Below, piece by piece: positions 3,043-23,376 of a DNA stretch of 64,000 bases. Under the pieces are notes generated by a model. The model saw only the letters and a list, made by a program, of their open reading frames with translations. It had not been told where the DNA came from and searched no databases. Numbering within the stretch: position 1 is the first letter of the stretch; every line of letters starts with the position of its first letter. Origin of the DNA: Dromaius novaehollandiae. Its lineage: Eukaryota; Chordata; Aves; Casuariiformes; Dromaiidae. Made by a program: the position numbers and the translations under genes. The stretch is taken from assembly GCF_036370855.1 (NCBI RefSeq), contig NC_088117.1:3472001-3536000 (forward strand). Reading direction: 5' to 3'.

Positions 3043-3190
3043 GTGATCCAAGGCAACATCGATACGTATGATGTGGTCTTGAAAGATCTTCGGCCTCCCA
3101 TCATTGCTCGTTTTATCCGGGTAATTCCTGTGACAGAGCTGCCAATGACTGTCTGTATGAGGGTGGAGCTCTATGGCTGCATCTGGTATG
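3043..3190 (+). CDS. DDR exon A: end of discoidin domain
   Basis: 148 bp, entering in phase 0 and leaving in phase 1 (acceptor tctcttccag, donor gtaagt). It encodes the family block [19 protein letters not shown] and ends with [10 protein letters not shown]. It is the first exon of this gene in the window. Confidence 0.93.
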
Positions 3191-21100: not shown

Positions 21101-23376
21101 CATCTTCCAAATATTTGCAGACTGCTAGGGTTGCCAGATAAGCCTGAGCAGTCTGGGGCTTGGGTGTTTTCTGACCAAACAGGCCCTCCAGCCCCCTGAT
21201 TTATTTTGTCTCCTGTTTTGTGGGTAATCTTTATCTTCTCATTATTTCTCTGGATATGCATTGCTCCAAACACAGCAGGTTTGGGCACTTTTTATCTAAG
21301 GCAGAGAACAGACAGTGAGCAGACTGTGACCAACTTTTGCATGTGCAGAGACCAAAATTTTCGCCCGTCCTCCCTTCCTCCCCTAAAGTATACAATCCAG
21401 AGTCTGCTTTTCCCCCCTAGGACTTTGCTTCATGTTCAAAACCGTTTCTATGCTGCCCTGCTGTGTTACAGGGTAAGGTAGACTGCAGCTATCCCCTTCC
21501 CCATCTTCTGCTACTGCTGCAAACAAATATGTACTCTTCCCTCTGAAGAGGCACTGTAGCCTCTGGCTTTTCCCTGAGACTTGCTCCGTGTTTCAAGGTC
21601 TCTGCCCTGGTGAAAGTTGTACCCTCTTAGAGCTGTTTGGATCCCTCTGTGCATTGCTGAGAGCAGGTCACCTGCTCTACTGTCTCTATGGAGAGCCTTT
21701 TCCCGGGTACAAATGCTGTGTCCTCACGTTTGGCTGCTGAGAGCTTAGATGGAAATGGCTTTCCTAAATGCGTACTGTGAGCAAAGCAGGCTTACAACAA
21801 CATTTCTGTTCACAGGGCAAGTTCACCACAGCCAGTGACGTCTGGGCATTCGGGGTCACCCTCTGGGAGATGTTCATCCTGTGTAAGGAGCAGCCTTACA
21901 GCCTCCTCTCAGATGAGCAGGTCATTGAGAACACAGGCGAGTTCTTCCGGAGCCAGGGCAGGCAGGTAAGAGAGCACAAATGTGACTTCTTCACTTGTCC
22001 CCATCACATCCGAGTGGATCTCCCAAGGGCTTTCCTGGTGCCTTTTTCTGGTGGCCTGACATCCTCTGCAGAGGATGCATCTATTCCTCACCTTTTCAAG
22101 TATGTCCCAACTCTCCCATGCTCCATCCAGGCTCATTGCACTGGCTTTCTTCTCTTGGAGTCCCACTGAAAGAACCTCTTGGCCCTGTCCAGTGCTTCTT
22201 CCTTATTATAAGCCACTTCCATTTCAAGTTGCCTTTGCGCTGTTCTCCTTAGCTTCCCTGGGCTCTCCCATACAATCCTTTTGCTCCTTTCCCTTGTCAG
22301 ATCTCTCTCCTGTTAGCATTTCCTCTGAAAATGAGGAAGCACTTAATGAGTTGGGGGAGGAGGAACTGTTAGTGCCTGTGAGTTGGATATTCCCTCTGCT
22401 ATCTCCACACATGCCAAGATGCCTCTGACCATCTCTAGTTGCTGAGGGGCTTTTCTGTGTCATGACCTATTCTCTCTTTCTAATTCCCGGGCAGGACTGT
22501 GCAGTCTACTACTGCTACCTTCATTCCCTTGAATCAGTGAGGATCTTTGATATCAGTGATGGTGCTAGATCACAGACAGACCAGCGCCTTGGTACTGAGG
22601 ATCACTCCACCCAAAAAAGTGGAGTGCCGGTTATTTGCCGATCTTCCAAAACTCACTTTTAGTACCAAACAAATTAAAGGAATTAAAATAAAGGAAGGTT
22701 TTATTCACTATCTCCTAGCTACGAATGATTTAGTGAAGAAGGTAGTGCAGATGAGTGTATTGAGAGAAAAATTAAAAAAAGCTATTTCTGCCAACCTGTG
22801 CCTTAGATAAGCTCTAAAAGGTTTTTTTTCCTGTCTCTGCTAACAAGCTATCACGATGCTTAGAAAGCCTCATGGGTTGTCTACGGTGAGTGAAAGTATT
22901 TGGATTTTATTGTGGTAAATTTGGTTTTGGTTTGTGTGTTGCTGTCACTTGGAAGAAAAATTCTCTAAAATGTCTGTTTCTTGTGGGACAAAGGACTGTT
23001 TTATGACCAGCTCTGTCATTGAACACGTTGGCAAAGTATGTGCTGTGCCATTTGAGATATGTCAAAGTTTCATCCAGACTTCACTTCCAGATTCATGCTT
23101 AATGGATTTTGAACATTGCATGACTGCTGTGTCTCTTGTAAAACCTAAAATGAAACTGTCCTTTGGTTTTAATTGAGTAAAGGTTCACTTCTTTTAACAA
23201 AATCACCGAAATGGTTGTATTTTTCTTTCTTCCAGATCTATCTCTCCCAGACTCCTCTGTGTCCTAACCCTGTGTTTGACCTGATGCTGAAATGTTGGAG
23301 CAGGGATATAAAAGATCGTCCCACTTTTGACATGATTCACCACTTCCTGCTAGAACAGATGGAATCAAATATTTGA
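3043..23376 (+). CDS. Discoidin-domain receptor tyrosine kinase (DDR family), 5' exons outside the window
   Basis: This is a collagen-receptor tyrosine kinase of the plasma membrane. Thirteen exons join in consistent phase to 2226 coding bases (741 residues plus stop). Domain order: end of the discoidin domain (residues 1-48), DS-like domain (about 50-230), extracellular juxtamembrane, one transmembrane helix (about 282-304), cytosolic juxtamembrane with NPTY, and a kinase from about 447 to 735. The kinase is intact: GEGQFGE loop, VAVKML lysine, [11 protein letters not shown], activation-loop tyrosines in LYSGDYY, and PIRWMAWE. Ectodomain N-glycosylation sequons include NDS, NES, NFT, NVT and NTS. 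Some blocks look like DDR1 ([16 protein letters not shown] near [13 protein letters not shown]), others like DDR2 ([26 protein letters not shown]). The signal peptide and most of the discoidin domain lie left of the window. I take it as a third DDR paralogue, often labelled DDR2-like; a divergent DDR1 is the alternative. Confidence 0.93.
3400..3505 (+). CDS. DDR exon B: start of DS-like domain
   Basis: 106 bp, phase 1 to 2, after a tttttttag acceptor. It encodes [12 protein letters not shown] and YLNDSTYDG; the latter is closer to DDR1 and carries an N-glycosylation sequon. Confidence 0.92.
6366..6552 (+). CDS. DDR exon C: DS-like domain
   Basis: 187 bp, phase 2 to 0. It encodes [16 protein letters not shown] and [13 protein letters not shown], both hallmark DDR blocks, and ends in RNFTSMK. 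Confidence 0.95.
7041..8260 (-). mobile_element. Old CR1 LINE relic
   Basis: This stretch is colinear with the CR1 3' region seen in antisense. Recognisable pieces are an AAATGAAGGAGAACCCACCA segment near 7070, AGATCACTGAAAAAGATAGT near 7737, and TTTATTCCAGTTCTTTGAAC near 8168. It is strongly diverged and has no open frame. It lies in the intron between DDR exons C and D. Confidence 0.7.
9959..10205 (+). CDS. DDR exon D: end of DS-like domain
   Basis: 247 bp, phase 0 to 1. It encodes [27 protein letters not shown] and SEISFQS, as in both known DDRs. The cysteine in VEC and the one in ILCRFYF are in the positions conserved in DDR2. Confidence 0.95.
11232..11324 (+). CDS. DDR exon E: extracellular juxtamembrane
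   Basis: 93 bp, phase 1 to 1. It encodes a poorly conserved Ser/Thr-rich stretch with one NVT sequon, as expected for the flexible stalk above the membrane. Confidence 0.85.
11865..12022 (+). CDS. DDR exon F: transmembrane segment
   Basis: 158 bp, phase 1 to 0. After an NTS sequon it encodes [15 protein letters not shown], a run of isoleucines and [22 protein letters not shown] is shared with DDR1 and DDR2, and basic residues mark the cytosolic side. Confidence 0.95.
12246..12441 (+). CDS. DDR exon G: cytosolic juxtamembrane with NPTY
   Basis: 196 bp, phase 0 to 1. It encodes [15 protein letters not shown], close to DDR1, and [10 protein letters not shown]. The latter gives an NPxY motif like DDR1's SNPAY at the point where DDR2 has SNSTYDRIF. 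Confidence 0.92.
13204..13345 (+). pseudogene. Partial duplicate of the kinase exon at 17099-17296, with donor site
   Basis: The 98 or so bases up to 13301 copy the 3' half of DDR exon J. By hand I count about 15 mismatches. The copy stays open in frame ([12 protein letters not shown], then [12 protein letters not shown]) and keeps the GTAAG donor. Similarity continues about 40 bases into the intron. It lies upstream of the juxtamembrane/P-loop exon, the wrong order for a kinase, and has no clear acceptor at its left edge. About ten codons differ in amino acid, so I read it as a dead exon copy. Confidence 0.85.
13643..13887 (+). CDS. DDR exon H: juxtamembrane tyrosines and kinase P-loop
   Basis: 245 bp, phase 1 to 0. 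It encodes [31 protein letters not shown] and [11 protein letters not shown]. The tyrosine spacing and SGDY-EP are most like DDR1. The open frame runs on past 13887 into the intron, but the GTACGG donor there is at the conserved position. Confidence 0.95.
14560..15920 (+). other. Pyrimidine-rich intron segment
   Basis: About 1.3 kb between DDR exons H and I is strikingly rich in C and T on the sense strand, with many short TTCCTC and CTTTC runs and C-tracts near 14815-14835. I see no coding exon in it. It could be an eroded simple repeat. Confidence 0.5.
16595..16716 (+). CDS. DDR exon I: catalytic lysine
   Basis: 122 bp, phase 0 to 2. It encodes VHLCEADGL and [13 protein letters not shown]. 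The lysine of VAVKML is the ATP-contacting lysine. Confidence 0.95.
17099..17296 (+). CDS. DDR exon J: kinase N-lobe and hinge
   Basis: 198 bp, phase 2 to 2. It encodes [40 protein letters not shown] and GDLNQFLS, then a short insert with [12 protein letters not shown]. The 3' half is the source of the duplicate at 13204. Confidence 0.96.
18357..18393 (+). repeat. Poly-T tract (37 T)
   Basis: An uninterrupted run of 37 T in the intron between DDR exons J and K. A CT-rich stretch surrounds it, and no target-site duplication is obvious. Confidence 0.95.
20228..20462 (+). CDS. DDR exon K: catalytic and activation loops
   Basis: 235 bp, phase 2 to 0. It encodes [43 protein letters not shown] and [12 protein letters not shown]. 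All catalytic residues are present, including the YxxxYY tyrosines whose phosphorylation activates DDRs. Confidence 0.97.
21816..21965 (+). CDS. DDR exon L: kinase C-lobe
   Basis: 150 bp, phase 0 to 0. It encodes [20 protein letters not shown], then [19 protein letters not shown]. Confidence 0.97.
23236..23376 (+). CDS. DDR exon M: end of kinase and stop
   Basis: 141 bp, phase 0 to stop TGA at 23374. It encodes [20 protein letters not shown], then [11 protein letters not shown] and a C-terminal tail ending EQMESNI, which differs from both human DDR tails. Confidence 0.95.
   Translation: MYLSQTPLCPNPVFDLMLKCWSRDIKDRPTFDMIHHFLLEQMESNI

Follow-up and report, generated by a model that had tools for sequence, protein, structure and literature searches.

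A probable third discoidin domain receptor gene beside TUBB4B in the genome of Dromaius novaehollandiae

Collagen-receptor work usually treats the discoidin domain receptor (DDR) family as two genes, DDR1 and DDR2. Does the bird Dromaius novaehollandiae possess a further one? A stretch of 64,000 nucleotides from its genome (contig NC_088117.1, here C20; C20:3472001-3536000), referred to below as the window, contains a DDR gene on the forward strand, and the beta-tubulin gene TUBB4B lies in the same window. A sequence-only reading had proposed that this is a third DDR, an extra copy from the vertebrate whole-genome duplications that belongs to the paralogon of the major histocompatibility complex (MHC). 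The window, its flanks, and the whole genome (1.47 Gb, 271 contigs) were searched. The gene is very probably an intact third DDR, retained in this genome as the family's copy in the 9q33-q34 part of the MHC paralogon.

Between positions 3043 and 23376 the gene has 13 exons, with AG/GT at all internal borders and a stop codon that closes the last exon (Table 1). The frame across these joined exons is open for 741 codons, then stops. These coordinates are only part of the gene. A human DDR2 ectodomain probe, used over 40 kb leftward, identified two further exons of the DS domain to the left of the window, C20:3468153-3468255 and C20:3470822-3471050. A candidate signal-peptide exon, C20:3461835-3461883, is also found there; it is tentative, as it was called only from its phase and a matching hydrophobic start. 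The complete model has 16 exons, counting the tentative first, at C20:3461835-3495376, and encodes 868 amino acids with no stop inside its 868 codons. In Pfam it matches F5_F8_type_C (PF00754, the DS domain; 78.8 bits, cut-off 28.2), DDR1-2_DS-like (PF21114; 261.3 bits, cut-off 27), and PK_Tyr_Ser-Thr (PF07714; 283 bits, above the cut-off). By inspection, a hydrophobic transmembrane stretch is followed by the tyrosine kinase, and VAVK, HRD, DFG, and YSGDYY are all present. The exons, the open frame, and the three domains bear out the DDR gene that had been read at this position.

DDR2 itself is located elsewhere. A whole-genome search with the extracellular and juxtamembrane sequence of the window gene gave 15 matches. 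Eight are at the window locus, six are on contig C8 at about 14.01 Mb, and one weak match (39%, one stop) is on contig C3. The gene on C8 (C8:14012683-14021499) was assembled from 15 exons without the signal-peptide exon. Against human DDR2 its protein shows identities of 92.5% in the DS domain, 91.5% in the DS-like domain, and 92.0% in the kinase; the human DS-like letters are provisional, here and in the comparisons below. UAP1 exons precede it and HSD17B7 exons follow it; these two genes also flank DDR2 on human 1q23.3. The window protein is 66.0%, 61.6%, and 77.3% identical to human DDR2 in the same three domains, and its identity to either DDR2, human or C8, is 62-79%. Since the C8 gene is about 92% identical to human DDR2 and has UAP1 and HSD17B7 beside it, the window gene is not DDR2. 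It is a separate gene, and the intact DDR2 sits elsewhere in the genome.

The window gene does share much with DDR2, namely the domain order, the activation loop, its highest sequence identity, and the intron phases. The phases agree with those of C8 DDR2 at 14 of the 14 comparable introns, and because of this agreement the gene is a genomic duplicate and not a retrocopy. The differences are that 23-38% of the protein sequence departs from human DDR2, that the rim of the collagen site and the juxtamembrane region are unlike those of DDR2, and that the window gene lies on another contig next to CIMIP2A, TUBB4B, and NELFB instead of UAP1 and HSD17B7.

Two of these neighbors, CIMIP2A and TUBB4B, had been named from the sequence and are confirmed by their best PDB matches. 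NELFB was identified in a local search of the flanks, beyond the right side of the window, as 13 pieces at C20:3542300-3554149. CIMIP2A, TUBB4B, and NELFB are close neighbors on human 9q34.3, and with all three present the proposed synteny with 9q34 was recovered. C20:3432001-3536000 has an N count of 0, so there is no gap between the DDR gene and TUBB4B. NELFB continues the block, and the linkage does not appear to be an assembly error. Excerpts of PMC1309616 describe four MHC paralogous regions, 6p21.3, 9q33-q34, 1q21-q25/1p11-p32, and 19p13.1-p13.4, and include a gene table of the class I region with TUBB, FLOT1, IER3, and DDR1 in a row. The window gene is in a 9q34.3-type block, a paralogous region that does not already hold DDR1 or DDR2. 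Its position 20 kb from TUBB4B mirrors DDR1 near TUBB, and this is the trace expected of a DDR-tubulin pair that predates the duplications. With a third DDR here, the occurrence of DDR and tubulin genes side by side at both places would be explained by one ancestral pair. The best reading is that the window gene is most likely a third ohnologue, with its origin in the vertebrate genome duplications, and that the copy was most likely lost in the human lineage.

The relationship to DDR1 is less simple. The window protein is 56.8% (DS), 54.2% (DS-like), and 69.9% (kinase) identical to human DDR1, while human DDR1 and human DDR2 are 59.3%, 51.4%, and 69.6% identical to each other. The window gene is roughly as distant from each of the two receptors as these are from one another, and in three of three domains the window protein is nearer to human DDR2 than to human DDR1. 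Columns were also counted over the three domains, using ungapped columns where human and C8 DDR2 agree. The window protein agrees with DDR2 and not DDR1 at 83, agrees with DDR1 and not DDR2 at 35, and differs at 41 where both agree. The mixture of DDR1-type and DDR2-type blocks that had been described is true in this plain sense. With human DDR1 the window protein has in common the domains, Lys112 at the rim of the collagen site, a one-residue gap in the DS domain, and WCPAG. It differs from human DDR1 in 30-46% of its sequence, and DDR1 is MHC-linked in the reports on human, anole, and axolotl.

The genome was searched with the human DDR1 kinase. Among the 118 matches listed, which come from the top-scoring candidates, eight have 67-81% identity, and all are at the window or C8 locus. 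The last exons of the window gene and C8 DDR2 match at 50 and 46%. Outside these two genes, the highest identities among the matches listed are 66% (contig C35; a 32-residue match containing a stop), 63% (C10), and 61% (C29). Other tyrosine kinases would be expected to match at this level, so the matches listed show no DDR1 kinase in the assembly. Of the two known receptors that might be present elsewhere in the genome, DDR2 was found on C8, and DDR1 was not found by the kinase query among the matches listed. The window gene is thus the second DDR found in this genome; that it stands as a third alongside both known receptors here is not demonstrated. DDR1 may have been lost in this lineage, or it may be unassembled.

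Several observations weigh against a third ohnologue and point instead to the window gene being the DDR1 orthologue of this genome, moved from the MHC region to its place beside TUBB4B. No separate DDR1 kinase locus is among the matches listed. The identity of the window protein to DDR1 slightly exceeds that of DDR2 to DDR1 in two of three domains (54.2 vs 51.4; 69.9 vs 69.6). The gap in the DS domain and WCPAG are DDR1-like features, and the cytosolic juxtamembrane part contains NPTY and SGDYAEP, which are similar to the NPxY and SGDYxEP motifs of DDR1. A kinase tree was built from human DDR1, human DDR2, C8 DDR2, and the window kinase and rooted with MuSK and TrkA, outgroups that are too distant. 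Its best form joins the window gene with DDR1 at a support of 59, and the values of the approximately unbiased test are 0.76 for this placement, 0.34 for window with DDR2, and 0.20 for window outside both. The three placements lie within less than 1 log unit of each other, and the tree with these outgroups gives preference to none of them. In the unrooted tree of the three joined domains the branch lengths are 0.28 (window), 0.24 (DDR2 stem), and 0.58 (DDR1). These comparisons support three old DDR lineages, with a branching order that leans weakly toward DDR1. Of the proposed extra copy from the genome duplications, the distinctness from DDR2, the 9q34.3-type block, and the approximately equal distance from DDR1 and DDR2 have held, and the rooted order remains within 1 log unit. 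A displaced DDR1 is nevertheless considered unlikely. The identity to human DDR1 (57/54/70%) is close to that between DDR2 and DDR1 (59/51/70%) and is below that to DDR2 (66/62/77%). DDR1 is reported to be MHC-linked in anoles and in axolotl, as far as the excerpts of these reports go, which suggests that it stayed there in other tetrapods. The move would also need a landing beside a paralogue of TUBB, DDR1's own neighbor. Linkage to the MHC class I framework was not seen at the window locus, where the neighbors found are CIMIP2A, TUBB4B, and NELFB; FLOT1 was not searched for. The main text of a paper on genes missing in birds (PMC4290089) does not mention DDR1, DDR2, TUBB, or FLOT1.

A later, lineage-specific duplication of DDR2 would account for the sequence being nearest to DDR2 and for the same intron phases. 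It is very improbable, as human and C8 DDR2 share about 92% identity, compared with only 62-79% between the window gene and either of them, which makes the split far older. The gene also has its place in a 9q34.3-type block, on a different contig. Hardly any weight is given to a pseudogene or an assembly join. An intron does hold a degenerate partial copy of a kinase exon (13204-13326), but the 868 codons have no internal stop, catalytic and ligand residues are kept, C20:3432001-3536000 has no N, and NELFB extends the 9q34.3-type block beyond the window.

What would a third DDR do? In the sister receptors, a receptor dimer grips triple-helical collagen with the DS domain, the kinase phosphorylates tyrosines of the activation loop and the juxtamembrane region, and the phosphorylated receptor recruits adaptors. 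We infer that the window receptor binds collagen and signals in the same manner. Its DS domain would hold the triple helix within a dimer, its kinase would then modify the activation-loop and juxtamembrane tyrosines, and adaptors would be recruited to the phosphorylated receptor. The central collagen contacts of DDR2 are Trp52, Thr56, Asp69, Arg105, Glu113, and the Cys73-Cys177 bridge, which an excerpt of the structural study describes as strictly conserved in DDR1 (Carafoli et al., 2009, PMC2807035). All seven of these residues are kept in the window protein by alignment, and because they are kept it is probably a collagen-activated kinase. The rim of the site is different. His110, Ile112, and Asn175 of DDR2 are Leu, Lys, and Ser in DDR1 and Thr, Lys, and Thr in the aligned window protein. 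When loops 4 and 6 of DDR2 both receive the residues of DDR1, the receptor acquires collagen IV binding (excerpt of PMC3034869). Of the three rim residues of the window receptor one is of DDR1 type and two are private, and it may have a collagen preference of its own. A shift in preference is likely, given a rim that is unlike both DDR1 and DDR2. As a naturally occurring variant, the receptor could help to identify the residues that determine collagen preference, and an intact third member with an altered rim would occupy the 9q34 position among the DDR genes of the MHC paralogon.

More tentatively, and with less confidence than the third ohnologue itself, a reciprocal retention after the vertebrate genome duplications may have taken place. 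Mammals would have retained DDR1 at 6p21 and DDR2 at 1q23 and lost the copy at 9q34, and this lineage would have kept 9q34 and 1q23 and lost DDR1. The third receptor, with its DDR1-like features, might then have the function in epithelia and at basement membranes that belongs to DDR1 in mammals. Should this lineage really lack DDR1, DDR1 results would not be directly transferable to it.

The family of DDR1 has been described as having two members (excerpt of PMC8456559). In fish annotation a third vertebrate DDR gene name, ddr2l, is already in use, for meagre (excerpt of PMC10813611); its likeness to the window gene is that of a third DDR by name. Other occurrences of "ddr2l" in the portions of literature retrieved are text about Ddr2-LacZ or DDR2-low and not the gene. 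Neither a third DDR of birds nor its place in the MHC paralogon was among the literature matches listed, in a search that most subscription journals lie outside. The window gene may already be listed in automated annotation.

Table 1. Exons of the DDR gene and neighboring genes in the window (window positions).
Feature	Position	Strand	Basis
DDR exon: C-terminal half of DS (collagen-binding) domain	3043..3190	+	AG/GT borders, open frame; 67% to human DDR2 probe
DDR exon: DS-like domain start	3400..3505	+	AG/GT borders, open frame; genome search match
DDR exon: DS-like domain	6366..6552	+	AG/GT borders, open frame; genome search match
DDR exon: DS-like domain	9959..10205	+	AG/GT borders, open frame; genome search match
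DDR exon: extracellular juxtamembrane stretch	11232..11324	+	AG/GT borders, open frame
DDR exon: transmembrane segment (by inspection)	11865..12022	+	AG/GT borders, open frame
DDR exon: cytosolic juxtamembrane region, NPTY motif	12246..12441	+	AG/GT borders, open frame
DDR exon: juxtamembrane end and kinase glycine-rich loop	13643..13887	+	AG/GT borders, open frame; genome search match
DDR exon: kinase N-lobe, VAVK lysine	16595..16716	+	AG/GT borders, open frame
DDR exon: kinase, helix C to insert	17099..17296	+	Open frame; human DDR1 kinase search match
DDR exon: kinase HRD and DFG motifs, activation-loop YSGDYY	20228..20462	+	Open frame; human DDR1 kinase search match
DDR exon: kinase C-lobe	21816..21965	+	Open frame; human DDR1 kinase search match
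DDR exon: last coding, with stop codon	23236..23376	+	Open frame; human DDR1 kinase search match
CIMIP2A exon stretch (matched part only)	31734..31928	+	Pfam CMI2B-like; best PDB match CIMIP2A/FAM166A E 2e-18, best FAM166B 2.6e-11
TUBB4B gene	43233..45204	-	Best PDB match tubulin beta-4B 806.8 bits, next distinct sequence 801.2; N-terminal pieces 45204-44740

The window gene is less compact than DDR2. The same exons span 27 kb in the window gene and 8.8 kb, from the first DS exon to the stop, in C8 DDR2. At 13204-13326, in an earlier intron, 123 bases repeat the 3' part of the kinase exon at 17099-17296, splice donor included, with 84% identity. This stretch is open by eye and has no evident acceptor, and it resembles an incomplete duplicate of the exon that is decaying.

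In C20:3422001-3556000, nothing matched probes for TMEM203, NRARP, SSNA1, or part of GRIN1 at E 1e-3, and the first three also had no match in C20:3432001-3536000. Pfam assigned nothing to 10 further reading frames or to six of a set of nine proteins. An open frame of 127 amino acids at C20:3445739-3446122 on the reverse strand looks coding-like by eye and has no Pfam family at E 0.05. Contigs C33 and C35 both have many kinase matches, with equal or nearly equal scores and an offset of 13.7-13.9 Mb. This pattern is as in a little-differentiated Z/W pair of a paleognath bird or in duplicated haplotypes.

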